IMG/VR virus record: IMGVR_UViG_3300049793_000366
Span: 434,865 to 498,864 of that record
Direction: 5' to 3' (one strand)
DNA: 64,000 bases
Source: a virus
Shown here: positions 1,052-62,870 of the stretch, piece by piece
How positions within the stretch are numbered: the first letter of the stretch is position 1
How the letters are laid out: every line of letters begins with the position of its first letter
Made by a program: the position numbers and the translations under genes
The notes under the pieces: generated by a model
Database searches by the model: none
What the model was told of the DNA's origin: nothing
Seen by the model: only the letters and a program-made list of their open reading frames with translations

Positions 1052-1312
1052 ATGCGCTTTAAAATTATATGCAATGACAAGGAGTTCGAACACGAAGTCT
1101 CTGTTAAAAATATTACTTACTTTGGTAAACCAGGTAAGATATCAGAGCTTTACATTCAGATAGAACAACTATTGAGTCTTGACCGCAAACTTTTTGAATA
1201 TCACATCGACTACTTTCAAGAAAAGATTTACATTGAGAATACTCATGCTAATTTCATGTCACACTTGCGCGAGAATAGACTTTCTAACCTTTTAGATATC
1301 GAATTGGTATGA
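1052..1312 (+). CDS. Unknown 86-aa C-tag protein
   Basis: Not recognised. The start codon follows the CYTH stop directly. The body is a mixed alpha/beta sequence with a helix around ELYIQIEQLL. The end, LRENRLSNLL plus five residues, matches the C-tag found on many unrelated proteins here. Its stop overlaps the next start. Confidence 0.75.
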   Translation: MRFKIICNDKEFEHEVSVKNITYFGKPGKISELYIQIEQLLSLDRKLFEYHIDYFQEKIYIENTHANFMSHLRENRLSNLLDIELV

Positions 1313-1602
1313 TGAACAACAACTCTAAGAGACCACATATTATCTTGAAACGAAATCCGGAAAGGGATAAATTTATTGATGCTATAAAATCAATAGGGTT
1401 TAGGCCCAGGATGGAGCAGAAGAATGTTGTTATCAGTACAACTGATTCAAATTCTGATTCTTCTACATATACACAATTGTGGGTAAAGGGTGACTTTGAA
1501 ATAAAGCTAACACACAAGAATGTAGAATTCGATGGTGATTTCTATGATTACAATGAGAGTGAAATATTATTCAGAAATTTAAAATTAAAAAACATTATAT
1601 GA
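1309..1602 (+). CDS. Unknown 97-aa C-tag protein
   Basis: Not recognised. Two consecutive ATG codons (1309 and 1312) are possible starts, both overlapping the upstream TGA. A basic N-terminus (KRPHIILKRNPERDKF) leads into a Ser/Thr-rich stretch and a short beta region. It ends FRNLKLKNII, a clear C-tag, and its last codons overlap the CoaB-type gene. Confidence 0.75.
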   Translation: MMNNNSKRPHIILKRNPERDKFIDAIKSIGFRPRMEQKNVVISTTDSNSDSSTYTQLWVKGDFEIKLTHKNVEFDGDFYDYNESEILFRNLKLKNII

Positions 1603-2375
1603 AAGCTTTAGTAACAGCGGGACCAACATATGAACACATTGACCCAGTTAGATTTATTGGTAATCATTCCTCTGGTAAAATGGGAATTGAAATTGCTGAG
1701 GAATTAAAACGTAGAGGTTATGATGTAACACTTATCATTGGACCCACACACTTAACGTGTTCGGAAAGTATTAACCGTGTTGATGTAACATCTGCTGATG
1801 ATATGTATGAGGCTTGTATTAAAGAGTTCCCATCATGTGATGTTGCTATAATGTCAGCCGCAGTAGCAGATTATAAACCAAGCTTTTGTTCTGATAAGAA
1901 GATAAAACGAAATGGTGATAACCTCACTATTGAATTAATTCCAAATAAAGACATCGCTTCTGAGTTAGGTAAAATGAAGAAGGCTAACCAAAAGTTAATC
2001 GGTTTTGCACTTGAAACAAATGATGGTGTTGACAATGCTATTAGAAAAATCATATCTAAAAACTTAGATATGATTGTGTTGAATCAGATAGGTGAGAAGG
2101 GTGTTGGTTTTAAAGTAGATACCAATAAAATATCTCTTATAAAACTGAAACATAATTTCACAAAAGCAAACCTACAAACTATGGTTTCTTTTCAGGATAT
2201 GTTAAAGAATTATCGTGAGTCACTTCTTCAAGATCCATCAAGTACATTCTACAATGGATTAGTTAAAAATACCGAAGCTCAGATAAGTGAGTGGAAACAT
2301 TTATTCATAACAACAAAAGATTTTGAAATGAAATCTAAGTCTGATGTTGCAGTTGATATAGTAAACTCATTGTGA
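1599..2375 (+). CDS. coaB: Phosphopantothenate-cysteine ligase-like protein (CoaB domain)
   Basis: CoaB joins 4'-phosphopantothenate and cysteine in coenzyme A synthesis. Diagnostic features are the N-terminal VTAGPTYEHIDPVRFI with HSSGKMG (about residues 5-29), SAAVADYKP near 85-95, KIKR, and the GFALET nucleotide-binding turn near 140. Cellular enzymes usually fuse CoaB to the decarboxylase CoaC; here the ligase stands alone. Between the last beta strand (about residue 185) and the usual final MSKxxVAxxI helix there is an extra segment of about 50 residues, which I have not seen in host CoaB. It lies in an operon with CYTH and C-tag genes. A role in boosting CoA or redirecting the ligase chemistry is inference. 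Confidence 0.9.
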   Translation: MKALVTAGPTYEHIDPVRFIGNHSSGKMGIEIAEELKRRGYDVTLIIGPTHLTCSESINRVDVTSADDMYEACIKEFPSCDVAIMSAAVADYKPSFCSDKKIKRNGDNLTIELIPNKDIASELGKMKKANQKLIGFALETNDGVDNAIRKIISKNLDMIVLNQIGEKGVGFKVDTNKISLIKLKHNFTKANLQTMVSFQDMLKNYRESLLQDPSSTFYNGLVKNTEAQISEWKHLFITTKDFEMKSKSDVAVDIVNSL

Positions 2376-2728
2376 TGATTGGTGGTGTTCACGGTTATAC
2401 TGGTCATTCTGTTGGTCAACAAACACCATGTGTGTGCTTCATATCATATGTTTCGCTATCACTTGAAGACCTCGTTGTACTCATAGGTATTGGTTTGAAG
2501 ATAACAAGACCAGAAGTTTTAAAATTTATCAAAGCATATTCCAAGAGTGATTCCGGTAGCAGAGCATTCAACTTTCCATTTACCGAAGAAGAATTAGAAC
2601 CATTTAAATATAAAGATTGTGTAGATGGTATCGATTGGGGTGTTCGTAGAGAATATGAAAACTTACCTAAATATGAAGCTATAAGAAAGGAATATTTTAG
2701 GAATTTAAAAATAGATAAAATTATATGA
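2375..2728 (+). CDS. Unknown 117-aa C-tag protein
   Basis: Not recognised. ATG at 2375 overlaps the coaB stop (TGATG); a GTG one codon earlier is less likely. The N-terminal part is Gly/His/Cys-rich (GGVHGYTGHS, PCVC), followed by a hydrophobic helix near LEDLVVLIGIGL. It ends YFRNLKIDKII, a typical C-tag. The stop overlaps the next ATG (ATGA). Confidence 0.75.
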   Translation: MIGGVHGYTGHSVGQQTPCVCFISYVSLSLEDLVVLIGIGLKITRPEVLKFIKAYSKSDSGSRAFNFPFTEEELEPFKYKDCVDGIDWGVRREYENLPKYEAIRKEYFRNLKIDKII

Positions 2729-2877
2729 TTAAAGAGAAATTAGAATTGCGTATGTACGGATTAGTTCCGTATAACATCAGTCCAATTCAACAATCAATAC
2801 AGTACGGTCACTCAGTTGTTGAATATGGTTTAGATTTCTTCAACAGTGATGAATATCAAGACTGGGCGAGAAACTGA
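2725..2877 (+). pseudogene. N-terminal part of a PTH2-like gene, cut by an in-frame TGA
   Basis: Fifty residues beginning MIKEKLELRMYGLV. They contain PIQQSIQYGHSVVEY, which resembles the first strand and helix of the peptidyl-tRNA hydrolase 2 fold (compare QxGHAxxE). The frame meets TGA at 2875-2877 and continues in the same frame as KTFMVMNGGTT into the next entry. Replacing the stop by Trp would give WARN-W-KTFMV, a natural-looking joint. This is a nonsense mutation, a sequence error, or a site of programmed readthrough. Confidence 0.7.
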
Positions 2878-2886
2878 AAAACATTT

Positions 2887-3267: not shown

Positions 3268-3299
3268 TTTGCATTCTTGAGAAAATATCCTTATATTTA
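3268..3299 (+). promoter_or_regulatory. Bacteroidota-type promoter, leaderless spacing
   Basis: TTTG (3268-3271), 20 bases, then TATATTTA (3292-3299); ATG follows after four bases. This placement decides the start of the next gene at 3304, because the upstream TTG-started extension would be encoded by the promoter itself. Confidence 0.75.
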
Positions 3300-3303
3300 C
3301 GGA

Positions 3304-3747
3304 ATGGATTATAAAGCCTACTATGCTAATTGTGGTTCTGAAAGGGAATATCCATATGATATACCGACATTAGAAGTTCTTGAATCTGATTCAGAATACA
3401 TGATGTCTGTGTTCAAAGAAGTTGTACACAAGGTAGTTTTTAATGTGTGTGATGATACGGATTACAGTGATAGATTGCGTGATCCTCGATTTATGGCTAC
3501 TAAGTTTTTTGGATTTACGGAGTCAATTCGCGGAGTAGCATTTATAAAATATTATAAGAAAGTAAAAAAAGAGGATAGATGGTTTATGGATTTCGTTAAA
3601 GATTTCGTTACCGTATATAAACCTAAAATAAGTAAGGATGAAAATGGCGAAACTATTCACGTAATTGATAGCGACCCAGTGAAGATACTAACACATCTTA
3701 AAGCATACAAGAGAGATATAGAATTAAAAACATTACTAAATGAATAA
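3304..3747 (+). CDS. Unknown 147-aa C-tag protein
   Basis: Not recognised. Starts MDYKAYYANC just after the promoter. An acidic N-terminal half is followed by a basic, aromatic stretch (FIKYYKKVKKEDRWF). It ends YKRDIELKTLLNE, a C-tag with two extra residues. Eight bases overlap the PARG gene, so it heads that operon. Confidence 0.75.
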   Translation: MDYKAYYANCGSEREYPYDIPTLEVLESDSEYMMSVFKEVVHKVVFNVCDDTDYSDRLRDPRFMATKFFGFTESIRGVAFIKYYKKVKKEDRWFMDFVKDFVTVYKPKISKDENGETIHVIDSDPVKILTHLKAYKRDIELKTLLNE

Positions 3748-4486
3748 AGAACAATTAATAGCAGTATTTGAAAATACGACAAGTATAATTAACTCAACAC
3801 CTGGGTTTCAATTATCAATTACGTCTAAACATAACACGAATAGTATTTCAGTACCTCGTGGTGAAACTATTGCAAACATACAGACGATTAATTCTGATAC
3901 AGTTTCAGCCGCTTTAGAGTATTCAAGAAAAGGAAGAACAGCAATTTTAAATATGGCATCATTTAAGAGACCAGGTGGTGGCGTTGCCAATGGTGCTAAA
4001 GCTCAAGAAGAATGCTTATTCAGATGTTCTAACTTATCTAAAGTTATTTCTAATGAATTCTATCCATTGGGTGTAAATGAAGGTCTATACACAAGAGATG
4101 CAGTCTTCTTCAAGGATTTTAACTACAACCAAATTGAACCATTCATGGTAGACGTTATCACGGTTGCTGCGATTAATTTATCTAAAGAAGATAACCCTAA
4201 GGAAATATTAGATTCGTATGATGTTATTATGATGGATAAGATGCGACTGATGTTCGATATGGCGTTACAGAATGGTTGTAAAAACATTATTCTTGGTGCT
4301 TGGGGTTGTGGTGTGTTTAGCAACAACCCAGTTAACATCGCGAGTATGTTTGAAGAAGTTATGATGAAGCGAAAAAACAGAGTTGATTCAACATATCACG
4401 AATGTTTCGAGAATATTATTTTTGCGGTTATCAATGACCACAATTCGGTTGGTGATAACTATGATGTATTTAGTAAATTTTTTTAA
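3740..4486 (+). CDS. Microbial-type poly(ADP-ribose) glycohydrolase (PARG/TIGR02452-like macrodomain)
   Basis: These enzymes remove ADP-ribose from proteins or nucleic acids. The signature is plain: NMASFKRPGGGVANGAKAQEE (about residues 72-92), combining the Asn-Ala-type strand, the PGGG loop and the GAxAQEE catalytic glutamates, then LxRxSNL. Further on, VITVAAIN and GAWGCGVFSNNP give the second substrate loop. At 248 residues it is close to family length. In a phage such an enzyme could reverse host ADP-ribosylation defences or clear ADP-ribose signals; that role is inference. It is followed two bases later by a small gene and then the ATP-grasp gene. Confidence 0.9.
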   Translation: MNKEQLIAVFENTTSIINSTPGFQLSITSKHNTNSISVPRGETIANIQTINSDTVSAALEYSRKGRTAILNMASFKRPGGGVANGAKAQEECLFRCSNLSKVISNEFYPLGVNEGLYTRDAVFFKDFNYNQIEPFMVDVITVAAINLSKEDNPKEILDSYDVIMMDKMRLMFDMALQNGCKNIILGAWGCGVFSNNPVNIASMFEEVMMKRKNRVDSTYHECFENIIFAVINDHNSVGDNYDVFSKFF

Positions 4487-4487: not shown

Positions 4488-4772
4488 ATGTATTTCTATC
4501 ACGTAACAAATAAGGGAGAGAACGCAAAGTCACATTGGTTACTTGCTAAAGACGATACTGATGCGATTAGAATTGCTTCAACTGAAAAAGGCGTAGTTGA
4601 CTTAGACTCATTGGAGAAGTTAAAACCATACGCTAATATAAATAAACTAATTAAAGAAGGTAAGGCTGGTTTACTTGCCGCTAAAATTTTAGGAATGAAG
4701 GCATCTGACCTTATTGGTGGTAAAAAACCAAAACAGATTGAAGATCCTTGGTTTCTATATAAAGAAGTATAA
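4488..4772 (+). CDS. Unknown 94-aa protein between PARG and ATP-grasp genes
   Basis: Not recognised. The start ATG at 4488 lies just after the PARG stop. It begins MYFYHVTNKGENAKSHWLLAKDD, which suggests a small alpha/beta domain, and has a helical middle (INKLIKEGKAGLLAAKILG). Without a C-tag, it ends WFLYKEV. Position makes it a candidate partner of its two neighbours. Confidence 0.7.
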   Translation: MYFYHVTNKGENAKSHWLLAKDDTDAIRIASTEKGVVDLDSLEKLKPYANINKLIKEGKAGLLAAKILGMKASDLIGGKKPKQIEDPWFLYKEV

Positions 4773-4776
4773 ACAT

Positions 4777-5517
4777 ATGAGAGTATTTATTCCAAAAGGT
4801 TCACACGATTTTATTTCAAAAGAAGTTTTGAATGAGAATTGTTTTGCCGCGTTTTCTGGATTCAGTCTTATGGGTTGGGAAGTTATCTTCTATGATGCTA
4901 AAGAACAACCTGATAACTTACTTCGCTCTGATGTTGTAGTTGGTTATATAACTCATGTTAAACAAGCACTGAGAAAACTCGATATTGTACCACCAACTGA
5001 AATAGATTACCCAGAAGAATTGAATGAATACTTTGGTCGTAAGTTATGGAAGTCAACATTACACACTGTTTATAATGATGAAACAATGTGGCCAGTTTTT
5101 GTTAAACCAGTATTAGGAAAACAATTCAATGGTACACTAGTTGAAAGTCTTACAAACTTGGTAGGTCTTGGTGCACAGGAAGACAGAGAGATATGGTGTT
5201 CAGAGCCAGTTAAGTTTGTATCTGAATATCGCTGTTTCGTTCGTTATGGGAAGGTTTTAGATGCAAGACGATATAAGGGTTCATTTAAACACATACCCGA
5301 TTTTAATGTCATAGAACGTTGTATAGAAGACTTCAAAGGTCAACCAGCGGCTTATACATTAGACTTTGGTATAACAGAAGATGGTCGTTCACTTCTCATT
5401 GAAGTTAATGATGGATTTGCTTGTGGTTGTTATGGATTACATAGCATCGATTATGCTAAATTTATGTCAGCAAGATGGCACCAAATGGTTGGCTTACCTG
5501 ATCCATGTATCTTCTAA
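4777..5517 (+). CDS. ATP-grasp ligase-like protein, R2K clade
   Basis: ATP-grasp enzymes activate a carboxylate with ATP and join it to an amine or thiol. FVKPV with KQFNG (about residues 108-118) provides the nucleotide-binding lysine and loop, WCSEPV and VSEYRCFVRYGKVLDARRY the middle strand, and LDFGITEDGRSLLIEVNDGFACGCYGL the metal-binding Glu/Asn and C-terminal part. This order fits the R2K clade, known in phages and linked to peptide ligation or protein modification. Start ATG at 4777 fits the preceding stop. Length 246. The substrate is unknown; proximity to PARG is suggestive only. Confidence 0.8.
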   Translation: MRVFIPKGSHDFISKEVLNENCFAAFSGFSLMGWEVIFYDAKEQPDNLLRSDVVVGYITHVKQALRKLDIVPPTEIDYPEELNEYFGRKLWKSTLHTVYNDETMWPVFVKPVLGKQFNGTLVESLTNLVGLGAQEDREIWCSEPVKFVSEYRCFVRYGKVLDARRYKGSFKHIPDFNVIERCIEDFKGQPAAYTLDFGITEDGRSLLIEVNDGFACGCYGLHSIDYAKFMSARWHQMVGLPDPCIF

Positions 5518-5771
5518 TGAAAACATTAAATGATTATAATAAGTTTGAATTCATTGAAGATGAATTGGTTTATTTAGGAGAGAGTGAGAACTTTACATAT
5601 GGTAAAACATACAGAATAGAAAACGATTACGATGTAAGTGATGATAGTGAGTATAGATTTTATATGGTATCACTAAAGAATGATAACTCATTATATGAGC
5701 GTGTACCAGGTAATAAGTTATGTAAGCTATCAGATTTTAGAAACGAAAAAATTGAAAATATAATAAAATGA
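5517..5771 (+). CDS. Unknown 84-aa C-tag protein
   Basis: Starts at ATG 5517, overlapping the ATP-grasp stop (TAATGA). Acidic, with beta-type repeats of Tyr and Asp (EDELVYLGESENFTYGKTYRI), which resembles the middle of family A. Ends DFRNEKIENIIK, a C-tag. Four bases overlap the next gene. Confidence 0.75.
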   Translation: MKTLNDYNKFEFIEDELVYLGESENFTYGKTYRIENDYDVSDDSEYRFYMVSLKNDNSLYERVPGNKLCKLSDFRNEKIENIIK

Positions 5772-6403
5772 AAAAGCAAATTTTAACAATCAACGCACAA
5801 TCTTTTGTGGATGTAATTACAAATAGTTCATCTGAATTATTTATTTGTAATACTGACAAATCTATTGATTTAGTTAATGAAATATTACAGGAGTTACTCA
5901 ATGGTTATGTTGAGAGAAATGGTGGTGGTCCATCATTCTCAGATTGCTTTGGTGCAATTGCTATCGTTGGTGATAACAACCAAACTGGTACATACTTCAT
6001 CGATGATTTACCATTAACTGAACAAGATGCTTTAGAAGAGCGTAGAAAGGAAATAATCAAGGCACAGATTATCCGTGAGCTTGAGAAGGATCCATCTTGG
6101 GATAAAAAGAATTGGCAAGAAAGAGATAAAATTTCAGTTAAGAAAACAGAAGCACAATTCCTTGAATATAAAAGAGAAGAGAAACTTGCTACGGTTACCA
6201 GTGAGAAATCAAATCTACCTGAGTGGTGGTTCACTGGTGCTATGCCTAAGAAAAACTCTTGGGATTATGATTCACCAATGAGGTGGAGAGGAATGTACAA
6301 AGGTAAAATAATCATTGAGTCAGCAACAGACAATTCAATTCCATACGATTTATTCGATGAAATTGAATCAGCGTTTAATGCTGAAAGACACCACATGGGA
6401 TAA
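5768..6403 (+). CDS. Unknown protein with N-terminal DVITNSSSE motif
   Basis: The N-terminus (QSFVDVITNSSSELFICN, residues 12-29) is a motif I recall from Bacteroidota phage hypothetical proteins; its function is unknown to me. A long charged, probably coiled-coil helix (about residues 85-145, rich in E, K and R) leads to a Trp-rich C-terminal part (EWWFTG, PMRWRGMYKG). It is directly followed by the radical SAM gene, so it could be that enzyme's substrate or partner. That link rests on adjacency only. Confidence 0.7.
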   Translation: MKKQILTINAQSFVDVITNSSSELFICNTDKSIDLVNEILQELLNGYVERNGGGPSFSDCFGAIAIVGDNNQTGTYFIDDLPLTEQDALEERRKEIIKAQIIRELEKDPSWDKKNWQERDKISVKKTEAQFLEYKREEKLATVTSEKSNLPEWWFTGAMPKKNSWDYDSPMRWRGMYKGKIIIESATDNSIPYDLFDEIESAFNAERHHMG

Positions 6404-6404
6404 T

Positions 6405-7259
6405 ATGAAAGTAAGAGAATTTAAAGATAAAAATTATAAAGCTATTTTTCATAATGGTAAAACCATTAGGATAGCTACTGATGCGTCTAAACTAATTTCA
6501 GAGTTGGACTATCCTGAATTCTACGATGTTGCTATAAACAACAAATGTAAAGCTAATTGCTCTTACTGTTATGTTAGTGCAATGAAGGGTGGTGAGAACT
6601 GGGAGAATGTAACCACTCGCATTTCAAATTTCTTTTCAAAAATGACAACCAATCAAAGACCATTTCAGGTTGCGATTGGTGGTCATGGTGAACCTACATT
6701 GCATCCCGACTTCATTCCGGTATTGGAAACATTTCATAAATTAGGAATTGTTCCAAACTATACTACGAATGGAATGCACGTAACAAATGACATCATTGAT
6801 GCTACTAAGAAATATTCTGGTGGTGTTGCTATATCATGTCACCCACACTTAGATAAGACTTGGAAGCAAGCAGTAGTTGATTATTCAAGTGCTGGTATCA
6901 AAACAAATTTACACATCATCGTTGGTGAGAGTGGTTCAGTTGATAGATTTAAAGATATCTACGCTGAGTTTGAAAATATAGTTGACTACTTTGTTATTCT
7001 ACCATACATGGCTGTTGGTCGTGCTAAGGAAATAGAAGTTAAAAATGAATGGGATAAACTATTCAAAGAATTAAAAGACTACAACAGAGGTAAGGTTGCT
7101 TTTGGTGCTTTGTTCTATCCTTATTTAAAAGATAACGAAGAAGGTGTTAAGTATTTAGATATCTCTTTATATGAGCCAGAGTTGATGTCTGGTTACATTA
7201 TGTTTGACGTAGAAGAACCTATTGTCAGAAAATCCTCATACGACTTAGAGTACAAATGA
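6405..7259 (+). CDS. Radical SAM domain enzyme
   Basis: Radical SAM enzymes use a 4Fe-4S cluster to cleave S-adenosylmethionine. The cluster motif CKANCSYC (CX3CX2C) is at about residues 47-54, followed by GGHGEPTLHPDF, the GGEP-type SAM contact, and TTNG and HIIVGESG in later strands. At 284 residues it has a core fold and no obvious SPASM cysteine-rich extension. The start MKVREFKDKNYK at 6405 follows the upstream stop by one base. It may modify a protein, a peptide or RNA; the upstream NSSSE protein is the nearest candidate partner. Confidence 0.88.
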   Translation: MKVREFKDKNYKAIFHNGKTIRIATDASKLISELDYPEFYDVAINNKCKANCSYCYVSAMKGGENWENVTTRISNFFSKMTTNQRPFQVAIGGHGEPTLHPDFIPVLETFHKLGIVPNYTTNGMHVTNDIIDATKKYSGGVAISCHPHLDKTWKQAVVDYSSAGIKTNLHIIVGESGSVDRFKDIYAEFENIVDYFVILPYMAVGRAKEIEVKNEWDKLFKELKDYNRGKVAFGALFYPYLKDNEEGVKYLDISLYEPELMSGYIMFDVEEPIVRKSSYDLEYK

Positions 7260-7354: not shown

Positions 7355-9484
7355 ATGTCACAAAACTCAGAAGATTTAAAAAAGCACCGCCTTTACTCAG
7401 AAACAGAATTCGATATCAAAGCTTCCGCATCAGACGGTGGCGAGGATGATGAAGATGAAGGTAGTATGTTTAATAAGCCAAAGGCCGACACAAAATCAAA
7501 AACCCCAGTACTCGATAATTTCGGACGCGATTTAACAAAAATGGCTGAAGAGGGTAAGTTAGATGCCATCGTAGGAAGAGACAAAGAGATAGAAAGGGTT
7601 TCCCAGATTCTATCTCGTAGAAAGAAAAACAATCCAATTCTTATTGGTGAGCCAGGTGTTGGTAAATCTGCTGTAGCAGAAGGACTAGCACTTCGTATTG
7701 TTCAGAAGAAAGTATCACGTTTACTTTTTAATAAAAGAGTAGTGACATTGGACTTAGGTTCTATGGTTGCTGGTACTAAATATCGTGGTCAATTCGAAGA
7801 GCGAATGAAAGCTCTTATGAATGAACTTGAGAAGAACAAAGATGTTATTTTATTCATTGATGAAATTCATACAATCGTTGGTGCCGGTGGTGCTAGTGGT
7901 TCACTTGATGCTTCTAATATGTTTAAACCACCATTAGCTCGTGGTGAAATACAAGTAGTAGGTGCTACAACCGTAGATGAATACCGTAAGCACATTGAAA
8001 AAGATGGTGCGTTAGAAAGAAGGTTTCAAAAAGTTGTTATTGAACCAGCTACACCAGAGGAAACTCTACAAATTCTTCATAACATCAAAGATAAATATGA
8101 AGACCACCACAACGTATTCTATTCAGAAGATGCTATTGCGGCTTGCGTTAGTTTAACTACTCGCTATATGTCTGATAGACACTTACCTGATAAAGCTATT
8201 GATGCTTTGGATGAAGTTGGTTCTCGCGTTCACATCACTAACATAAAAGTACCTCAAGAGATACTTGACATCGAGAAAAAAATCGAAGAGATTAAAACAG
8301 AAAAGAATCGTGTTGTTAAGAATCAAAAATACGAAGAGGCTGCTAAATTAAGAGATGTTGAAAAACAATTAATCAATCAATTAGATGATGCTCGTAAGAA
8401 TTGGGAAGACGACCAAAAGAACAACCGAGAGATTGTTACAGAGGAACACGTTGCTCAAGTAGTATCGATGATGACTGGTATACCAGTTACAAAGATAGGA
8501 CAATCTGAAGGTAAGAAGCTAATCGATATGTATAAAGAGTTATCTGGTAAGGTAATTGGACAAGATGATGCTTTAAAGAAAATTGTTAAATCAATTCAAA
8601 GAAGCCGTGTTGGTATGAAGGATCCTAATAGACCAATCTTCTCTGGTATGTTAATTGGAAATTCAGGAGTTGGTAAAACAGAAATGGCTAAGCAATTAGC
8701 TAAGTATATGTTTGACTCAGAAGATGCATTAATCAGATTAGATATGTCTGAGTTCATGGAGAAAATTGATGTAACTAAAATAATTGGTTCATCTGCGGGT
8801 TATGTTGGATTCGAAGAAGGTTCAGCATTCTTAAACAAAGTTAGGTCAAAGCCATACTCAGTAATCTTATTAGATGAAATTGAGAAAGCACATCCAGAAA
8901 TCTTCAATGTATTCTTACAAATGTTAGATGATGGTCAATTAAGTGATTCACATGGTAGAAAAATTAACTTCAAGAATTGTGTTATTCTTATGACATCGAA
9001 TGTCGGAACAAAAGTAGTTAAAGACTTTGGTGCTGGTGTTGGATTTGTAACTCAAGCTAAGTCAACATCATCTAATGATGATTTAAAGGGTACACTTGAA
9101 AAAGAATTGAAAAAGAAATTCGCTCCTGAGTTCATTAACCGTCTTGATGATATCATTTACTTCAAAGATTTAACTAAAGAAGATATTGGTAGAATTGTTG
9201 ACATCGAATTAAATAAATCACTTAATCGTTTGAAAACAATGGGTTACGAAGCTGTAATCGAAGAGTCTTTAAAAGAACAGTTAATTGAATCTGGTTATGA
9301 TCCTAACTATGGCGCAAGACCATTGAAGAGAGCAATTCAGAGATTAGTTGATGATGCTCTTACTGATACATTACTTGAAGAGCCAGCAGTTGGATCTACT
9401 ATGAGTATGGGATTCGATAAAGAAAAGGATGAGACAGTTATTACTGTTAAGAAGCCAAAAAAGAAACCAACAAAGAATGATTAA
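7355..9484 (+). CDS. clpC: ClpC-type AAA+ unfoldase without the N-terminal Clp-N domain
   Basis: Two AAA+ modules unfold proteins for a ClpP peptidase or for disaggregation. The first has GEPGVGKSA (Walker A) and ILFIDEIH (Walker B); the second has GNSGVGKTE and [11 protein letters not shown], with the sensor and arginine-finger region PEFINRLDD. Between them, [14 protein letters not shown] is the UVR motif typical of ClpC. The loop GVGFVTQ in the second module matches the G-[FL] loop by which ClpA/C/X docks ClpP. In place of the usual 140-residue Clp-N domain there are about 50 acidic, low-complexity residues (GGEDDEDEG). At 709 residues it is therefore shorter than host ClpC. Loss of the adaptor-binding domain implies different substrate choice. 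Confidence 0.93.
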
Positions 9485-9788: not shown

Positions 9789-10190
9789 ATGGAAGAAGAA
9801 AAAATACCAACATCATTACAAGAAGCAATTGACTTTTTAATAGAAGCTGATGCTAATTTAGGAATGGGAAGCGGAATGGGAATGAGAAACAGTTGGGGGT
9901 TATGGCACGGTTCAAAACTCGCGCAATGGTTTTATAGACATCAAATATACCATGCTGATGATATGAGTGGCATCATTATGGATTCTTATAAAAGAACTAA
10001 AAATGGTGAACCAATTGAGTTAAAAGAACAAATAGCTAAGTATCATAAACACTGGGAGATAAATCATGGACCAAACCATTTAAGCGAAATGAAAGCCATG
10101 ATTGTTGAAAATCTTATTAAGATGCGGGCTGAAAATCTTGATGAAATATTGAAAGATATTAACTCTGAGGATATTGAAGGTAAAAGCTAA
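9789..10190 (+). CDS. Unknown 133-aa protein, possibly DUF6794-like
   Basis: ATG at 9789 is preferred over a TTG at 9771. The central GMGMRNSWGLWHGSKLAQWFY...HADDMSGIIMDSYKR resembles a DUF6794-like domain; I recall that family but cannot check it. Mostly helical elsewhere. Its 3' end overlaps the convergent gene by about 30 bases. No tag. Confidence 0.65.
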   Translation: MEEEKIPTSLQEAIDFLIEADANLGMGSGMGMRNSWGLWHGSKLAQWFYRHQIYHADDMSGIIMDSYKRTKNGEPIELKEQIAKYHKHWEINHGPNHLSEMKAMIVENLIKMRAENLDEILKDINSEDIEGKS

Positions 10191-10497
10191 TATTTACAGC
10201 AGTATAGTCAAAGCCACTGACTCTGACATTTTGTAATTCAGCACCACATTCTTTAGCAATATAGGGTAGAATTCCATTGTTGAGTTCTAATGCTTCATCG
10301 TTATTAACCGCATTTGGGAATCTCTCAGTAGCAGTTACGCTGAATAGGTTATTTCCCATATTTCTTACTTGGACCTTCATTAATTCGAAGTTTTCGTTGT
10401 CGGATAGGTATGATTCTACATCAGATTCAATATCGTCCATATCAATTCTGCCTTTCATATTAAAAATAAATTTCTCATACTTTTGAAGGTGCTTCAT
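10159..10497 (-). CDS. N-tag protein, 112 aa
   Basis: Begins MKHLQKYEKF, a member of the N-tag group. The rest (VQVRNMGNNLFSVTATERFP and a beta-rich end) is unrecognised and does not clearly carry the family B domain. It is a single-gene unit reading towards the preceding operon, with its own TATATA element. Confidence 0.75.
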   Translation of the reverse strand: MKHLQKYEKFIFNMKGRIDMDDIESDVESYLSDNENFELMKVQVRNMGNNLFSVTATERFPNAVNNDEALELNNGILPYIAKECGAELQNVRVSGFDYTAVNISFYLQYPQS

Positions 10498-19965: not shown

Positions 19966-19978
19966 AATTAAAACAGTT

Positions 19979-21377: not shown

Positions 21378-21378
21378 T

Positions 21379-21738: not shown

Positions 21739-21739
21739 A

Positions 21740-38563: not shown

Positions 38564-38564
38564 A

Positions 38565-52697: not shown

Positions 52698-53138
52698 TTA
52701 TATGTCCATATTAGTAAAGTCAATCTCATAGATAACAATCTCACATGAAGTAATCTTGTAGAATCTACTTCTTTCATTATCATATAGTCTTTTAAGTTCA
52801 GTAAGCTTTATTCTATCCTTGCTGATTGGTTTATGTCTATCATTTATATTAAGGTAACTGAATTGAAATCCCAACCCCATTGCTGATAACTTTTTTGATA
52901 GTATATCAAGGCTCTTGAAGAAGTCACCGTTCAACGGTATGTCACTTAAAGCCTCATAACCAAATCTGGATATCGGATGTGTCTCATCATCAAGCACAGT
53001 TCTACTATGTTGAAAGTCATAGACATCCATCAATGCCTGCATAACATTATCAACCTCTGAGCGAGATTTATCTATCTCAACACTAAGGTGTTTGTTTATA
53101 ATAGTGATATATCCTTCGAATGTCTTAAGGTGTTTCAT
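52698..53138 (-). CDS. N-tag / family B protein, 146 aa
   Basis: MKHLKTFEGYITI start. VMQALMDVYDFQHSR and LDILSKKLSAMGLGFQFSYL complete the domain. Last of four minus-strand N-tag genes. Confidence 0.77.
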   Translation of the reverse strand: MKHLKTFEGYITIINKHLSVEIDKSRSEVDNVMQALMDVYDFQHSRTVLDDETHPISRFGYEALSDIPLNGDFFKSLDILSKKLSAMGLGFQFSYLNINDRHKPISKDRIKLTELKRLYDNERSRFYKITSCEIVIYEIDFTNMDI

Positions 53139-54399: not shown

Positions 54400-54702
54400 A
54401 TGAAAAATACTATAACAATCAATAATGATGAGATTAGTACTCACTTATCATATACTCTTATAGAGAAAGATACCGCCTTTATTGGACACATCACTGCGCT
54501 AAATATACCATTCACATCACCTACTAAAGATAAAGCTTCTGATATTGCTAAAGGTCTTGTAAAAGCTTTATTTCATAAATGGGGAAATACTGGTGGTTTA
54601 GAATTAATAAGAGAGAAGATAAAGTCGTTTAATTTCACACAGGTATATGATACGCACTACGAATATAGTTTACCAGTACCAAAATCTTCATATCAAATGT
54701 AA
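54400..54702 (+). CDS. Unknown 100-aa protein
   Basis: Start MKNTITINNDEIS at 54400 fits the promoter. Helix DKASDIAKGLVKALFHKWG, then IREKIKSFNF. No terminal tag. Confidence 0.68.
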   Translation: MKNTITINNDEISTHLSYTLIEKDTAFIGHITALNIPFTSPTKDKASDIAKGLVKALFHKWGNTGGLELIREKIKSFNFTQVYDTHYEYSLPVPKSSYQM

Positions 54703-55016
54703 TGAAAGGCGTTAGAATAAATGAATCAGTCTGGACATCAGACAATGGTAATACTGGTAAAGTAGCCATTTTCACCTATGCGGGTGATTTAGATCCAAGT
54801 GCTGTATTAGAACAAGCAGTCAGAAACTATGTAGGTGATAGTAAGAAATATGTAGAACTAATGGATGCTCATATGAACTGCCCCTGGATGCGTGGCATCG
54901 TATCTGGTATAAATGATATGAGTCAGGTTGAATGGTCGGGGCAAACACTTAAACAATTTTTACGCGAGAACACAATAAATGAAATATTAAACAATCAAGA
55001 TGATATTAACACCTGA
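54702..55016 (+). CDS. Unknown 104-aa C-tag protein
   Basis: MKGVRINESVWTSDNGNTGKVAIFTY start; ends KQFLRENTINEILNN plus a short tail. Overlaps the next gene by 17 bases. Confidence 0.72.
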   Translation: MKGVRINESVWTSDNGNTGKVAIFTYAGDLDPSAVLEQAVRNYVGDSKKYVELMDAHMNCPWMRGIVSGINDMSQVEWSGQTLKQFLRENTINEILNNQDDINT

Positions 55017-55840: not shown

Positions 55841-56296
55841 ATGAGGTATATAAAAACGTTCGAGGGTTTAAGGGCTGACTTAATTGCTATTGATGCTAAA
55901 TTCGCTGATAGGAAGAAGGAGTTAGAATTAGAACTTCATAATATAGATAAAGAAACCCACGCGCTTAAAGCCAAAGCCATTCTCTCTAATAAGGAGAAGG
56001 TATCTGAGTTCGCGTTTGAAATACTTGACGAATACGATACTACTGTTGTCTATAAGAATAAATTAGATATTCAAAGCAGACACTTCAATATAAACATTGA
56101 GATAACTCCGGATATAGACTTCGACAAACTTAAATCAATCGTATCAAGATTTGAAAAGAAATGCTTATCTGAACAATTCGCAATGAGATTCAATATCAGA
56201 TACGAAGATGGTAGAAGCACACACGCTGATACCTTTAGCGATGCACTACCTAAGCTGGTGGATAAAACAGCGAGACTATCTATATTAGCCAGATAA
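55841..56296 (+). CDS. N-tag / family B protein, 151 aa
   Basis: MRYIKTFEGLRADL start, charged coiled coil (DRKKELELELHNIDKE), then FAFEILDEYDTTVVYK and VSRFEKKCLSEQFAMRF. The same coiled coil plus family B plan as 37,531-37,995. Confidence 0.76.
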   Translation: MRYIKTFEGLRADLIAIDAKFADRKKELELELHNIDKETHALKAKAILSNKEKVSEFAFEILDEYDTTVVYKNKLDIQSRHFNINIEITPDIDFDKLKSIVSRFEKKCLSEQFAMRFNIRYEDGRSTHADTFSDALPKLVDKTARLSILAR

Positions 56297-56817
56297 TGAA
56301 GAATCTAAAACTATTCGAAGATTTTAACGAGTCACATAGATATAACACGAGGGATTTTACATTCAGTGGAGTTCCAACGGATAGCGAATTGATAGATACG
56401 TTCATGTCTATGATAGACGATGATATTATTGTCAGACTCAAGCGTGATTTGGATTTTGCTGTGGCTCTTAAAGGACCATCACGCACAATCAGACCAGTTA
56501 AAGAGAGTTGGGAATATACAATCAATACTGATGGTGTTTTGAATATTACTTCTCATAATCATACCGATATTGATGAGGAATCAAAGTTGGTTGGGTTCGT
56601 TGATAAGTTTCAGATATACTGTGAATCACCTCAAGAGATAGATATTTTACTAGGAAAAGAAGTAGATGATATAGCACTCGATGATTCAATCGTAAATAAT
56701 GCTATGCGTAAGTTGAAGTCTTTAGAATGTGTTACTAGTGTTACGCATAAGAAGGTAACTGAATACTACTCAGTATTAATTGTACAATATAACAATCCAA
56801 CGTTTATAATAATTTAA
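56296..56817 (+). CDS. N-tag protein, 173 aa
   Basis: MKNLKLFEDFNESH start, co-operonic with the previous gene. The body (VPTDSELIDTFMSMIDDDIIVRLKRDLD) is unrelated to family B as far as I can see. Confidence 0.73.
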   Translation: MKNLKLFEDFNESHRYNTRDFTFSGVPTDSELIDTFMSMIDDDIIVRLKRDLDFAVALKGPSRTIRPVKESWEYTINTDGVLNITSHNHTDIDEESKLVGFVDKFQIYCESPQEIDILLGKEVDDIALDDSIVNNAMRKLKSLECVTSVTHKKVTEYYSVLIVQYNNPTFIII

Positions 56818-56848: not shown

Positions 56849-57124
56849 TCATCTAAATAGTCTGTTTATTTTGACTTCTCGGATTTTTTGCAACTCAAAA
56901 TTTTTTGCAGCGAACGTCTGAATCATTTGTCTACACTGATGAATGAACTTACGCTTGAGAGCATTACCCTTCTTACTACTAATCAGAAAACAATTATCAG
57001 ACCATACATACTTCTCACCGTATGTGATGTAGTAACCAGCTTCATGTCTGCTGATTCTAATATACCGGATATGTAAATCACGAAGACCGCACCTACGTCC
57101 TATCTTAATGAGTTCTTGTTTCAT
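56849..57124 (-). CDS. Basic C-tag protein, 91 aa
   Basis: MKQELIKIGRRCGLRDLHIRYI start; strongly basic and aromatic. Ends KIREVKINRLFR. Could bind nucleic acid (inference from charge). Confidence 0.71.
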   Translation of the reverse strand: MKQELIKIGRRCGLRDLHIRYIRISRHEAGYYITYGEKYVWSDNCFLISSKKGNALKRKFIHQCRQMIQTFAAKNFELQKIREVKINRLFR

Positions 57125-57938: not shown

Positions 57939-58232
57939 TCAGAGTAATTGGGTTAATTTCCTATCACGAGTGAATTGCTCAAAGCTCAATGGTTCTACTT
58001 GGTCGTCATATACAACCATTTTAAGTATGCGCTCGTGTATTTGGTGTATTTTGATATTATTGTATTCATCATCTAATTTACCTTTGATATCAGATAATAC
58101 AAATTCTGGTGGTACATCCGAATGTAGTTCAGCGATGTGAGTAGCGATGTATAGCATATTCTCTGAGTTATACCCAGTGAATCCATATAAATAATACTTA
58201 TATCTTTCTAGTGATTCTAATGTGAGACTCAT
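57939..58232 (-). CDS. Tandem-triplet C-tag protein, 97 aa
   Basis: LESLERYKYYLYGF start and FEQFTRDRKLTQLL end. With the next two genes it forms three neighbouring paralogues (pattern Y-x-x-SLxxYxxYL...FxRDxKLxxLL), all helical. Confidence 0.77.
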   Translation of the reverse strand: MSLTLESLERYKYYLYGFTGYNSENMLYIATHIAELHSDVPPEFVLSDIKGKLDDEYNNIKIHQIHERILKMVVYDDQVEPLSFEQFTRDRKLTQLL

Positions 58233-58492
58233 AGCAATTTGTTTAGCTTATGGTCGCGGATAAATTGTTCATATGGTAATAGTTCCTTCTCAGTAATGAT
58301 TGACTCCATTTCATTCTCAAGACTAATGAAAATATCATGCAGTAAAAAGCTTTCTATGGTTCTGTGTTTGGCTGTTTCAATATACTTATCTATACGTATT
58401 CTCATATAATCCAATGTCTCAGGCTTATTGAACTTATATAAGTATTCCTGATAGGCTTGTAACGATTCTAAATATGTTATCTGTGATGTCAT
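58229..58492 (-). CDS. Tandem-triplet C-tag protein, 87 aa
   Basis: TYLESLQAYQEYLYKF start; YEQFIRDHKLNKLL end, close to the tag consensus. Overlaps by four bases with each neighbour. Confidence 0.78.
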   Translation of the reverse strand: MTSQITYLESLQAYQEYLYKFNKPETLDYMRIRIDKYIETAKHRTIESFLLHDIFISLENEMESIITEKELLPYEQFIRDHKLNKLL

Positions 58493-58755
58493 AGTATCTG
58501 GTCTAATTTATTATCACGCATGAACTCTATATAGGATAATACTTTACCCTTTGATATGTGTATGGTATCTACTTCATATTTTAGCTTAGATATAACATCC
58601 AACATAACTATATTTGATATAGGTTGTGTCTTGATGATGTTCATTAAGTTATTTATCTGAACACCAAGTATCATCATAGAATCAGAGTTGCTTATATCAA
58701 ATAAATATTCTTGATAGGCTTTTAATGATTTCAAATATGTTAACTGGTCTTCCAC
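58489..58755 (-). CDS. Tandem-triplet C-tag protein, 88 aa
   Basis: TYLKSLKAYQEYLFDI start; YIEFMRDNKLDQIL end. Oldest-looking of the three by position in the operon; the order of duplication cannot be read. Confidence 0.78.
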   Translation of the reverse strand: MEDQLTYLKSLKAYQEYLFDISNSDSMMILGVQINNLMNIIKTQPISNIVMLDVISKLKYEVDTIHISKGKVLSYIEFMRDNKLDQIL

Positions 58756-59177: not shown

Positions 59178-59885
59178 TTACCAAATTTTAGGATTAATTT
59201 CTTTTTGTTGTTTAAATATATCTTGACCAACAGCTACCCATTGGTTCCAATTCATTCTAAGTTCTTCTGGGTGATAACCAGTCGCGCTACCGTTATGTCG
59301 TGACACATACGACATGATACACTCAGCATGAATAGAGTGATGATTATATTCGTTCTCACCGCAACCACAGGCAGTGCCTCTACCGTTATTATATTCCCAT
59401 ACGAGTGGAATTAAACCACAGATTTTACATGGCGCCCATGCGCTTGGATTTGTCACTCGTTTGTATGCTGAGATAGCTTTATAATTCCTACGATGTTCAA
59501 GCCATACTTTCATAGACTTAAGCATACCAGCTTTCATTTTAACATTACGCTTGGTGATGAAGTTATCAATCTCATACTTATCTGGTATAAGATTGATGAA
59601 TGTATCGGCATCCATTTCTTGTATCGCCATCACATTAGAAGCAGTGATTGTAACAGAATCACCAGCAGCTTTTCTATCCTTGAAGAACCGCGCATATTTC
59701 AAATCAGTAATACTGTATAGTGTGTCTTTTTTATCAGGGCTACCACTATCACAGCCCATGAAGAATCGTTTTTCATCTTCATCAAATAAAGCAGATAATT
59801 TATTATCGCGCTGACGTTGTTTATCAGTAATCTCTATGTAATAGAATATGTCTCTCTTGGTAGAGTAGTATAATTTATTATCCAT
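59178..59885 (-). CDS. Lar-like zinc protein with internal C-tag motif, 235 aa
   Basis: KQRQRDNKLSALFDED at about residues 22-37 matches the C-tag, here near the N-terminus. The C-terminal part (CKICGLIPLVWEY...CGCGE, then HSIHAECIM and ELRMNWNQW) resembles phage Lar-family restriction-alleviation-type zinc proteins. Middle region unrecognised. Counter-defence is possible but inferred. Confidence 0.75.
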   Translation of the reverse strand: MDNKLYYSTKRDIFYYIEITDKQRQRDNKLSALFDEDEKRFFMGCDSGSPDKKDTLYSITDLKYARFFKDRKAAGDSVTITASNVMAIQEMDADTFINLIPDKYEIDNFITKRNVKMKAGMLKSMKVWLEHRRNYKAISAYKRVTNPSAWAPCKICGLIPLVWEYNNGRGTACGCGENEYNHHSIHAECIMSYVSRHNGSATGYHPEELRMNWNQWVAVGQDIFKQQKEINPKIW

Positions 59886-60183
59886 TTATTAATTGTTTGA
59901 GCTTTCTATCTCTATTCTCTGGTATATTTATCTTGAAGTTATCTAAGTTAAAATATGGTTCGCGTTGACCATATACCTCCGTGTGTATTGGTTCATTATG
60001 AATCTCATTTAGTACTATACCATACACAACTGTATTGTCAACTTTTTCTGATATAATATCTCGTATGGTATAAGTTTGTTCATTAACTGGGTACATAACA
60101 CCTTTCATATCACCAGCCCCTTCAAAGTTTTTATTTGTAGGTCTTAAATAAGTGACGCTATCTCCTATTTTTATATTAGCCAT
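59878..60183 (-). CDS. C-tag protein with KOW/SH3-like opening, 101 aa
   Basis: MANIKIGDSVTYLRP start (barrel-like), QTYTIRDIISEKVDNTVVYGIVL middle, ENRDRKLKQLING end. Overlaps both neighbours. Confidence 0.76.
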   Translation of the reverse strand: MANIKIGDSVTYLRPTNKNFEGAGDMKGVMYPVNEQTYTIRDIISEKVDNTVVYGIVLNEIHNEPIHTEVYGQREPYFNLDNFKINIPENRDRKLKQLING

Positions 60184-60556
60184 TGATTATATTTTCTGCG
60201 ACTGTTCTGAATAAATCTTCTGCGATTAAATCGTCAATAACAATCTCTCTACACTCCTGTTTGAATACTTCTCTGAATCTTTCATTAAGATGATTTCTTC
60301 TCCACTCATTATCTGGTGCGAGTTGGAATACACAATCTACATTCTCACCAGTTACATTATGATGTGTGTATAAACGATAATCGGCAGTGTCGTAATTGAT
60401 TTCACTATTGGTATCACCATGACTAAATACAACAAGTGTGTAGTGTTTATCAACGAAGTAATCTGGGTAGTATTTATACTCTATTGCCCAGCCAGCACCA
60501 GGGTGTGTGATACCAATTTGCACGAATCCTATATTAGTAAACTTCTCTATGAACAT
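60176..60556 (-). CDS. Unknown 126-aa protein
   Basis: Not recognised. HPGAGWAIEYKYYPDYF and YTLVVFSHGDTNSEI; helical end (VFKQECREIVIDDLIAEDLF). No clear tag. Confidence 0.66.
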   Translation of the reverse strand: MFIEKFTNIGFVQIGITHPGAGWAIEYKYYPDYFVDKHYTLVVFSHGDTNSEINYDTADYRLYTHHNVTGENVDCVFQLAPDNEWRRNHLNERFREVFKQECREIVIDDLIAEDLFRTVAENIING

Positions 60557-60783
60557 AATTTACTCAACTTATAATCTCTGATGAATTCTAATGATAGGTG
60601 TATCGTAACTTCAGCGTGTGATGTTAAACCATATCTATCACCTGGTCTCAATCTATATTCAACGTGTTGTTTATCGTGTTCTGCTTTTAATTCATCTGGG
60701 TTGTAACATTCATATCTACAACCTACGTTACTGATGCAGTCGATGAACCACTTATCGTCCTTTTTATCTAATCTACCTATCAT
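60547..60783 (-). CDS. C-tag protein, 78 aa
   Basis: IGRLDKKDDKWFIDCISNVG start; RPGDRYGLTSH; ends EFIRDYKLSKLCS. First gene after the 60.8 kb promoter. Confidence 0.75.
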   Translation of the reverse strand: MIGRLDKKDDKWFIDCISNVGCRYECYNPDELKAEHDKQHVEYRLRPGDRYGLTSHAEVTIHLSLEFIRDYKLSKLCS

Positions 60784-61471: not shown

Positions 61472-61758
61472 TACTCAAATAGTTTATTTATTTTTGAATC
61501 GAGTATTATTTGTTTTATTATATCAGGTAGAAATCCAATACTCGTGTTACCTATGAATGGATTAGCTGTGCGATATATTTCAACACCCTTGTGTAATTCT
61601 TCCGCTTCTTCAATAGTCTCAACATCAGTTATGCTATTTTCAGTGATAGTGTAGGTTTTATTATGCCCTTTGAAATTAACCGTTCGTATATTTATAGCAT
61701 AGCTGGTATAATCAACAACATCACCACTTTGTATATTCACACTTGTTACAATTATCAT
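61471..61758 (-). CDS. C-tag protein, 95 aa
   Basis: MIIVTSVNIQSGDVVDY start; TIEEAEELHKGVEIYRTANPF helix; ends IILDSKINKLFE, a tag lacking the usual Arg. Resembles 61,898-62,191 (SSEEAQSLYDALEAY). Confidence 0.73.
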   Translation of the reverse strand: MIIVTSVNIQSGDVVDYTSYAINIRTVNFKGHNKTYTITENSITDVETIEEAEELHKGVEIYRTANPFIGNTSIGFLPDIIKQIILDSKINKLFE

Positions 61759-61901
61759 TTATTCATTAACTTCTTATACAATCTGTTTAAATCTGTTTTG
61801 GTTCCGACTAACTTAGCTAACTTAAGTTTCTTCTTTTGCTTCTTACCGAGTCCAATGCCCATATCAATGAATTTGATATGTCTTTCTATTTGTTTATTCA
61901 T
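61755..61901 (-). CDS. Small basic protein, 48 aa
   Basis: MNKQIERHIKFIDMGIGLGKKQKKKLKLAKLVG, Lys-rich helix; ends NRLYKKLMNK, tag-like in form. Start and stop overlap both neighbouring genes by four bases. Confidence 0.68.
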   Translation of the reverse strand: MNKQIERHIKFIDMGIGLGKKQKKKLKLAKLVGTKTDLNRLYKKLMNK

Positions 61902-62191
61902 TTTGTTAGTTCATCAAGCTTAAGTGTTCGTATTTCTTCTTTTAATACTGTTTGTAGAAATCTGATATGTTGATTGTCTCTCTTTATAATGTAGGCTTCG
62001 AGTGCGTCATATAAACTCTGTGCTTCTTCGGATGATTCAACTGGTGTCCACAACTTATTATCATTTGCCTTTGCATTTGTATAGCGTATGACATAAGTTC
62101 TGTTGTCAGTTTTTATATTCCAAAATAGTGTATTACCACTTGGATCTTTGGGGTTCCCGCCAGTTTTAGCCATGACGCTCCCTACTACCAT
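61898..62191 (-). CDS. C-tag protein, 97 aa
   Basis: DNRTYVIRYTNAKAND beta start, SSEEAQSLYDALEAYIIKRD helix, end EEIRTLKLDELTK. ATG at 62191 overlaps the upstream stop; MAKTGGN at 62173 is an alternative start. Confidence 0.73.
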   Translation of the reverse strand: MVVGSVMAKTGGNPKDPSGNTLFWNIKTDNRTYVIRYTNAKANDNKLWTPVESSEEAQSLYDALEAYIIKRDNQHIRFLQTVLKEEIRTLKLDELTK

Positions 62192-62505
62192 TAGTAATTG
62201 ATAGTGAATGGTTCGTATGACATGATTTGATTACCGTTGTTCCAGTTAGATGTGTCTAACTGAGATTCATCATCAGTCTTTGAATTGAAGACTTGTACAC
62301 AACCATTGATAATCTTTTTACCCTCTGTTATCTTGTAGGGTAGTCGGTCTTTTTTTGGTGAGCATAAGTACTCAGTTTTACTTGTTGTGTTCTTAACAAG
62401 CACTTCTGTGTCTTTTGGTGTCTTATAGATACTGAATACTTCTTTAGATGCAATCAGTTCTTGTACTTGTTGTACGCTGAGATATCCGATGTTTGTTACT
62501 ATCAT
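62191..62505 (-). CDS. Unknown 104-aa protein
   Basis: LSVQQVQELIASKEVFSIYKTPKD, then TEYLCSPKKDRLPYKITEGKKI. No tag. Ends TINY. Confidence 0.66.
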   Translation of the reverse strand: MIVTNIGYLSVQQVQELIASKEVFSIYKTPKDTEVLVKNTTSKTEYLCSPKKDRLPYKITEGKKIINGCVQVFNSKTDDESQLDTSNWNNGNQIMSYEPFTINY

Positions 62506-62870
62506 ACTAATTCGTTTAAAAATTTATTACGCTTTGCTTGTTTTAATATCTTCTCACACAAGATTATATTCTGTTCGTATTTTCTATTCGTACTATCTGG
62601 GTCAAGATGGTTCTTAATCATCTGTGAATAACCGATAAGATAATTTTTAAATACGACTGTAAAAAAGGATTTTGGTTTCCTTTCTACACCACCGAGATTA
62701 GGGTCGAATTTATCTTCTTTCTTCTTTGTGAATTCAATACCATTATTCAATAATATTTCTCCTATCTCTTCATGTAAATCAGTGAACTTCTTAAGTTTAT
62801 TCATATAGACATAACAGTTGCTTCGGTATAAGCTAATCAAATGTTTTTCAATATTTTCGGTAAAATACAT
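62502..62870 (-). CDS. Helical C-tag protein, 122 aa
   Basis: MYFTENIEKHLISLY start; mostly helical with KKKEDKFDPNLGGVERKPKSFF loop. Ends AKRNKFLNELV, a C-tag variant. Confidence 0.7.
   Translation of the reverse strand: MYFTENIEKHLISLYRSNCYVYMNKLKKFTDLHEEIGEILLNNGIEFTKKKEDKFDPNLGGVERKPKSFFTVVFKNYLIGYSQMIKNHLDPDSTNRKYEQNIILCEKILKQAKRNKFLNELV

Follow-up and report, generated by a model that had tools for sequence, protein, structure and literature searches.

Why should about 65 otherwise different proteins of one virus end in the same short peptide? We investigated this question in a stretch of 64,000 nucleotides, hereafter the window, covering positions 434,865-498,864 of the 507,910-base virus record IMGVR_UViG_3300049793_000366, in which a reading of the letters alone (the sequence-only reading) had reported a C-terminal tag on that many proteins. 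Genes were called mechanically, giving 166 genes in the window; sampling of 264 kb of this phage (G000), about half of its genome, gave 471 proteins. As the gene starts are mechanical open reading frame starts and the tags sit at the stops, start errors have no effect on the tags. The closest named relatives of the phage are LR745206 (634 kb) and LR756502 (642 kb). The shared tag is genuine, in frame and C-terminal, and we propose, with a probability of roughly 0.4, that it serves as a docking helix at the C-terminus, and most likely as a degron, for a phage ClpC-ClpP protease gated by ClpS.

The strict motif R[DEN].[KQ][IL]..[IL][ILFV] was present in the last 28 residues of 34/166 window genes, with 0.056 expected from shuffled tails (500 shuffles, maximum 1) and 1/505 found in internal 28-mers. 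An iterated profile of R-[DEN]-x-[KQ]-[IL]-[ND]-x-[IL]-[IL], in which a score above 12 counts as tagged, retrieved 65 of the 166 window genes and, over the 264-kb sample, 101/471 proteins vs 0.45 per shuffled set; internal 30-mers gave 5/2043. The scores show an empty gap, none falling between 8.9 and 12.6. Hand review removed four doubtful window calls (9771, 23393, 60176 and 62502) and left 61 window tags. The number and positions of the carriers given by the sequence-only reading were thus right, and its expectation of enrichment over shuffled C-termini was borne out. A prior-free motif search of the C-termini returned as top patterns R...L..L (37 seen vs 0.5 expected), R..K...L and RD.K. 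The six-frame scan of the window yielded 70 profile matches, 65 of them in called genes at no more than 20 residues from the stop, with almost no out-of-frame copies; 0-12 codons separate tag and stop. In the literature searched, no phage tag of such a kind is described, as had been supposed, and no phage system is known from that literature in which more than 100 unrelated proteins share one C-terminal recognition helix.

The tag is also carried by other giant phages. It was found in 127/862 sampled genes of LR745206, in 113/923 of LR756502 and in the IMG/VR contigs G001-G004, and in the best sampled genomes its share of the sampled genes is 12-22%. Between LR745206 and LR756502, 32 reciprocal best pairs bear the tag in both members and keep the arginine in 32/32, with bodies only ~41% identical, while 14 discordant pairs are mostly near-threshold forms of the same tail. 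The sequence varies by lineage, being RD-K-I in LR745206 and LR756502, RK-K-I in LR756504 (full form R-K-x-[KR]-I-x-x-L) and RK-K-L in the IMG/VR contig G010. A first narrow sample had suggested that LR756504 is tag-free, a sampling artefact which arose because the tags cluster and which wider sampling removed. Considering this clustering and the limited sampling, G005 and G006 were counted neither as tagged nor as untagged. The tag did not turn up in the stretches sampled from LR756501 (735 kb), LR756508, the Lak phages and four other ClpC-bearing contigs. A DNA pattern search over IMG/VR gave 47 loci, five with clustered tags and the rest due to chance. The C-terminal pattern Y....WL, seen in other ClpC-bearing loci, belongs to one orthologous gene and is not a tag. 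The tag-bearing giant phages probably infect Bacteroidota. Bacteroidetes are the predicted hosts of the Mahaphage clade (PMC7162821), and the phage ClpS is nearest in sequence comparison to ClpS of Flavobacteriales, in agreement with a Bacteroidota host.

Constraint falls mainly on tag positions 0, 1, 3, 4, 7 and 8, which span an arc of ~160 degrees at 100 degrees per residue, and the weakly constrained positions 2 and 6 point away from that face. Judging from the profile, the constrained positions would occupy a single face of a predicted C-terminal helix and have the look of a docking helix. Body-only BLAST sorted the 65 window carriers into 60 families, and an iterated hidden Markov model (HMM) gathered only 19/65 into one SH3-like family, so that a single homologous fold behind all carriers, which the sequence-only reading had named as its refutation, does not hold. 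AlphaFold2 models this family (gene 30507-30767) as a barrel with a C-terminal helix, residues 66-83, that holds the tag, at a mean predicted local distance difference test score of 89; the confidence drops toward the end of the tag helix, and the fold matches are SH3 domains with weak E-values. For a second family, of three genes, the model is all-helical at modest confidence and leaves most of the tag outside any helix. Some of the other carriers resemble membrane proteins, others zinc ribbons, and the carriers outside the SH3-like family appear unrelated. The sequence-only reading had taken the tag for a linear motif, amphipathic and attached to unrelated bodies, that a single partner would read, a view strengthened by the single helix face, the modelled helix past the barrel and the conservation in diverged orthologs. 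The tag is confined to proteins without recognisable core functions; a convincing Pfam domain was found in 0/95 tagged G000 proteins scanned, and only isolated weak or short matches among 111 of LR745206.

The window encodes a ClpC/ClpA-type AAA+ unfoldase of 709 residues (7355-9484, + strand; Pfam AAA_2 4e-57, AAA_lid_9, ClpB_D2-small and UVR). This protein is without the Clp N-domain, has a UVR-type middle domain, and bears a VGF loop as candidate ClpP contact; from its sequence, it is a candidate reader that may bind the tag. Its N-terminal 45 residues contain an acidic run after IKxA, common to most close ClpC relatives. The G000 genome adds ClpP, ClpS and a transfer-messenger RNA (tmRNA). 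The phage ClpS has the PF02617 core (E 1e-16) and an N-degron pocket, N26 D27 D28 and H58, that is invariant over 56 phage and 77 cellular sequences. The N-terminal extensions of the phage ClpS proteins show unusual conservation, with a motif S-[KQ]-V-x-E-I-L that is like tag positions 3-8.

Several small phage proteins touch on the UVR domain of ClpC. A tagged 99-residue protein of LR745206 (L159:6085-6384) has a UVR segment homologous to the ClpC middle domain (E ~1e-5) and, on this similarity, is possibly a ClpC mimic or adaptor. UVR-ending, McsA-like proteins of 111-153 residues occur at L160:6859-7248, L181:19394-19855, L193:7425-7790, L027:9172-9519 and L191:17124-17459, and one UVR-ending small protein sits just upstream of ClpC in G005. 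Directly upstream of clpC lies, in other places, a conserved protein of 116-131 residues with the tag and a short polar tail (L013:19445-19840, L014:19459-19848, L023:2130-2480, L026:9604-9954); no such protein was seen next to the clpC of the window. The UVR middle domain was rejected as the co-varying partner, its motif not differing between the ClpC of phages in which tags were detected and the ClpC of those in which none were, and the UVR motif was rejected as the origin of the tag, the two registers being one residue apart.

ClpS follows the distribution of the tag. It is present in 10/10 clearly tagged genomes with adequate sequence (G000, LR745206, LR756502, LR756504, G010, G011, G012, G021, G022 and G024) and in 0/7 untagged ones (LR756501, LR756508, Lak-A1, G007, G008, G009 and G014). 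A tblastn search of phage ClpS against 50,697 phage records gave close homologs only in the three tag-bearing ones. Six contigs (G010, G021-G025) were chosen by ClpS before most of their tails were examined, and four of the six (G010, G021, G022, G024) are clearly tagged; in the small samples of the other two, the tag is not significant (G023) or borderline (G025). In G010, R..KL occurs at 59/386 tails vs 2.5 expected, in the variant R-K-x-K-L-x-K-[IL] (p ~1e-58). Tagged tails in ClpC-positive, ClpS-free contigs numbered 0/163, 1/207, 0/155 and 0/136. Almost no tags lie within 10 kb on either side of the phage ClpS genes, and farther stretches of the same contigs are tagged. The literature searched describes no ClpS of a phage that is linked with a C-terminal tag. 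Because the ClpS adaptor tracks the tag, this phyletic evidence favours the protease among the partners that the sequence-only reading had listed (a protease, a localisation factor, or a ribosome or polymerase subunit); we infer ClpC or ClpS as the reader and degradation as the outcome.

In the mechanism that we propose, the tag would bring many small accessory proteins, probably early ones for host takeover, to the phage ClpC, ClpP and ClpS. On ClpC, a groove or the entry pore would receive the helix face formed by R0, D/E/N1, K/Q3, I/L4, I/L7 and I/L8. The flow of substrates might be controlled by ClpS, in the way that the E. coli protein favours N-degron over ssrA-tag substrates, and the outcome would be a timed removal, or a co-localisation, of the tagged proteins. 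In Mycobacterium tuberculosis, ClpS acts on ClpC1 without its N-domain, via the middle domain (PMC6274998). The Clp model fits this precedent because the phage ClpC has no N-domain either. The ClpS of E. coli suppresses ssrA-tagged substrates, and it has an N-terminal extension that mimics a degron (PMC9663308). As in Clp C-terminal degrons, the phage signal is C-terminal on unrelated proteins (65/70 six-frame matches; ~60 body families), and the unfoldase and peptidase are encoded in the same genome (ClpC and ClpP, with ClpS), their cognate pairing being putative. If the tag is a degron, the phage would run a genome-wide programme of protein turnover; if it is an address, it would point to a hub that organises giant-phage proteins, uncharacterised so far, by the hundreds. 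In both cases it offers a way into unannotated phage proteins, and the lineage-specific tag sequences provide built-in specificity controls.

Several observations weigh against the Clp reading. The intact N-degron pocket means that ClpS may serve N-degrons only. ClpC or ClpP alone does not explain the tag, as both occur in tag-free phages (ClpC in LR756501, ClpP in Lak). From 0 to 12 residues follow the tag, whereas ssrA needs a free end; since residues may follow it, the tag is not an end-recognised degron of the ssrA type. The tmRNA of the phage (G000:C1:59955-60348) was considered as a source of the same signal and rejected, its tag peptide AKSKTTATQVEELEIA differing from the gene-encoded, degenerate tag. 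ClpS was not detected in G001-G004, tag-bearing contigs so short that each represents a fraction of a genome, and a degenerate ClpS-domain protein of phage CBB has no tag along with it. The phages are related, so that ClpS and the tag are perhaps just co-inherited; the ClpC tree spreads the tag over up to three lineages and is compatible with anything from a single origin to three. The likeness between the ClpS N-terminal extension and the tag is weak, about 7% of random stretches equalling it, and it is degenerate in the ClpS of G000 itself. Finally, seven gene families of LR745206, ClpS included, share the pattern of the tag in the sampled genomes, and vWA/DUF2201 is the only one of the six non-ClpS families compared over whole genomes.

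The alternative that survives best, possible and tentatively held, is that the tag docks its carriers on another hub, encoded by the phage or the host, as an address or assembly label, ClpS being co-inherited. Candidate hubs are RNA polymerase, the ribosome, the replisome, a phage compartment, or a MoxR-type AAA+ protein with its vWA partner. The tag is a classic helical linear motif, and its position +1 differs by phage (D vs K), as for a co-evolving partner. The MoxR-like AAA ATPase and vWA/DUF2201 share the distribution of the tag in the sampled genomes, and the sole large tagged protein (731/622/713 residues in LR745206, LR756502 and G001) is encoded beside the vWA gene. Nevertheless, vWA/DUF2201 was rejected as the partner, since DUF2201, when searched for over whole genomes, is present in tag-free phages too (LR756501, Lak, BF and CBB), and no candidate besides ClpS followed the tag so closely. 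The vWA/DUF2201 protein and the MoxR-like AAA+, found at L165:11257-12741 and L166:2980-4101 of LR745206, are conserved in tag-bearing phages.

A self-pairing helix that joins the carriers into oligomers is improbable. The heptad-like spacing of positions 0, 4 and 7/8 with charged flanks would suit it, but the tag has only about two turns, and the residue at +1 switches its charge from phage to phage with R0 and K3 unchanged, so one self-pairing geometry does not fit all. Quite improbable, too, is that the tag binds membranes weakly as an amphipathic helix, in the manner of MinD or FtsA with their C-terminal helices. The tag is indeed amphipathic, C-terminal and basic, and some carriers are membrane-like (gene 13984-14385); its near-invariant R0, D/E/N at +1, N/D at +5, three hydrophobic positions and few aromatics are nonetheless more specific than lipid binding requires, beyond a generic amphipathicity.

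We regard as highly implausible that a nucleic-acid element at gene ends, such as a signal for ribosome binding or termination that serves the following gene, dictates the residues. Its one support is an over-use of A-ending codons at tag position +7, where in G000 Ile is ATA in 27/35 (background 40%) and Leu is CTA in 19/48 (background 13%), whatever the position of the stop. Against it, the codons at every other tested position follow background usage, out-of-frame copies are few, and the distance to the stop varies over 0-12 codons. A remote common origin of all carriers in one ancestral family, with the tag as part of the fold, draws on the 19 SH3-like window carriers and is equally implausible, given the 60 body families, the all-helical, membrane and 731-residue carriers, and the two modelled families that already differ.

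Among known systems, the ssrA tag and other C-terminal degrons of ClpXP and ClpAP resemble the phage tag as short C-terminal signals on unrelated proteins, in a genome with Clp subunits and tmRNA. The phage tag differs in being gene-encoded, helical, phage-specific and followed by up to 12 residues, the tmRNA tag being distinct and degradation here only proposed. With ClpS-ClpA/ClpC adaptor systems, the phage ClpS shares the NDD...H pocket of Bacteroidota ClpS, whereas the phage ClpC is without the N-domain, the usual docking place of ClpS. The LPXTG, PEP-CTERM, GlyGly-CTERM and T9SS CTD signals likewise put one C-terminal signal on many bodies for one reading machine; for export, they bring along a membrane segment or an entire domain, and the phage tag is a 9-residue helix with neither. 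The FtsZ tail and sliding-clamp motifs are helical or linear docking peptides for one hub, but serve few proteins, compared with 12-22% of sampled genes here. Capsid-targeting sequences of phages, as in the T4 internal proteins, are also short terminal tags shared by many unrelated phage proteins. Those of T4 are N-terminal and removed by the prohead protease, unlike the C-terminal tag, which does not combine an N-terminal position with a protease site.

A second tag, N-terminal and of the form MK[HY][LI]K.[FY][EN] (MKHLKxFE), resembles the T4 capsid-targeting sequences and was seen in at least 14 window genes (within 10159-10497, 20208-25828, 37531-40570, 52698-53138 and 55841-56817). Over six genomes, N-terminal and C-terminal tags occur together in 6/215 cases (p 6e-9), and those six are doubtful N-terminal tags. 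In LR756501 (735 kb; L127, L128, L207-L217), DPYGEE[NED]W ends ~15 unrelated proteins, and in ~25 more it stands directly after the N-terminal tag or internally. The N-terminal tag and DPYGEExW therefore suggest that giant phages may label proteins more widely. It is conceivable, though we consider it doubtful, that this giant-phage lineage has its own labelling code, with a C-terminal helix on about a tenth to a fifth of the genes read by ClpS/ClpC/ClpP and the N-terminal tag marking another fate, perhaps the capsid. If so, host-takeover proteins would be switched off or gathered at once, and the labels would drift by lineage (RD-K-I, RK-K-I, RK-K-L).

The individual window tags are given below with tag coordinates, followed by the gene; all are on the + strand unless marked (-), and all were retrieved by the profile. 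In the SH3-like family identified by the HMM, the strict motif is also present in REEKLNQLF 17013-17039 (-; gene 17007-17267), RDKKINKIL 18290-18316 (18059-18325), RENKISNIV 19221-19247 (18936-19283), RDNQLDTLL 29768-29794 (29564-29797), RDNKINNIL 30019-30045 (29794-30063), REKQLDKLL 30714-30740 (30507-30767; tag in the C-terminal helix modelled by AlphaFold2), RDNQINNIL 31806-31832 (31620-31838), RENQINNIL 32123-32149 (31838-32158), REEQINNLL 32819-32845 (32624-32866), REEQIDSLL 33084-33110 (32859-33149), RENKLEALL 36151-36177 (35926-36183) and RDSKLKKLL 44220-44246 (43986-44252). The profile and HMM, without the strict motif, gave RDMLINDII 20186-20212 (19940-20224), REMRLDTVL 28087-28113 (27883-28128), RDLTINTLL 29088-29114 (28878-29138), REKQLKDVL 30955-30981 (30742-30993), REKLLNNLT 31584-31610 (31380-31616), RKEQIDKIL 33351-33377 (33162-33380) and RDYNLNELL 35726-35752 (35534-35761).

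The all-helical family comprises RDRKLTQLL 57942-57968 (-; 57939-58232), RDHKLNKLL 58232-58258 (-; 58229-58492) and RDNKLDQIL 58492-58518 (-; 58489-58755), all with the strict motif and the model. A likely membrane protein carries RDEKIKNIL 14341-14367 (13984-14385), with the strict motif, and zinc-ribbon-like proteins carry RDNKLQTLL 32353-32379 (32155-32388) and RDNKIRKIF 35505-35531 (35262-35537), both with the strict motif, and RNSKIESVL 51675-51701 (51510-51710), found by the profile.

Among the other carriers, the strict motif accompanies the profile in RNLKLKNII 1573-1599 (1309-1602), RNLKIDKII 2699-2725 (2372-2728), RNEKIENII 5739-5765 (5505-5771), RETKLSQLI 11388-11414 (11148-11420), RELQLNKLV 18648-18674 (18318-18695), RNIKLSELL 19574-19600 (19292-19606), RDIKINHIF 26372-26398 (25997-26416), REEQLNKIL 26667-26693 (26397-26702), RNKKIQTIL 28355-28381 (28121-28387), RDNKIKTIL 29306-29332 (29117-29368), REQKLNNLL 29535-29561 (29337-29567), RNQKLEILF 34144-34170 (33979-34206), RDSKIQTLL 48440-48466 (48107-48493), RDTKINEII 50090-50116 (49838-50131), REVKINRLF 56855-56881 (-; 56849-57124) and RDRKLKQLI 59887-59913 (-; 59878-60183). 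The profile alone gave RENRLSNLL 1268-1294 (1052-1312), RDIELKTLL 3712-3738 (3277-3747), REVKIRNLT 15783-15809 (15516-15815), RNMRINKIV 16994-17020 (16706-17026), REEQINKLD 18907-18933 (18676-18936), RDLKLSELT 27326-27352 (27053-27361), RHLIIDKAL 27678-27704 (27354-27710), RDTNIQKVL 30257-30283 (30053-30289), RDQIIDSIL 30478-30504 (30289-30510), RDSQLERLM 32592-32618 (32388-32627), RDKKINEVL 34485-34511 (34293-34517), RDMKLDEAL 36185-36211 (-; 36176-36703), RAKQIDKIT 40573-40599 (-; 40567-40842), RDDIINKIL 50373-50399 (50115-50405), RDMKISKLD 51711-51737 (-; 51705-52055), the weak tag LDNKINSII 52325-52351 (52115-52357), RENTINEIL 54963-54989 (54702-55016), RDYKLSKLC 60553-60579 (-; 60547-60783) and RTLKLDELT 61904-61930 (-; 61898-62191).

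No matches came from scanning the window for Rfam families and tRNAs. Beside clpC, the window encodes proteins with a PARG-type domain, an R2K ATP-grasp and a radical-SAM domain (3740-4486, 4714-5517, 6315-7259), possibly protein or nucleotide modification genes.

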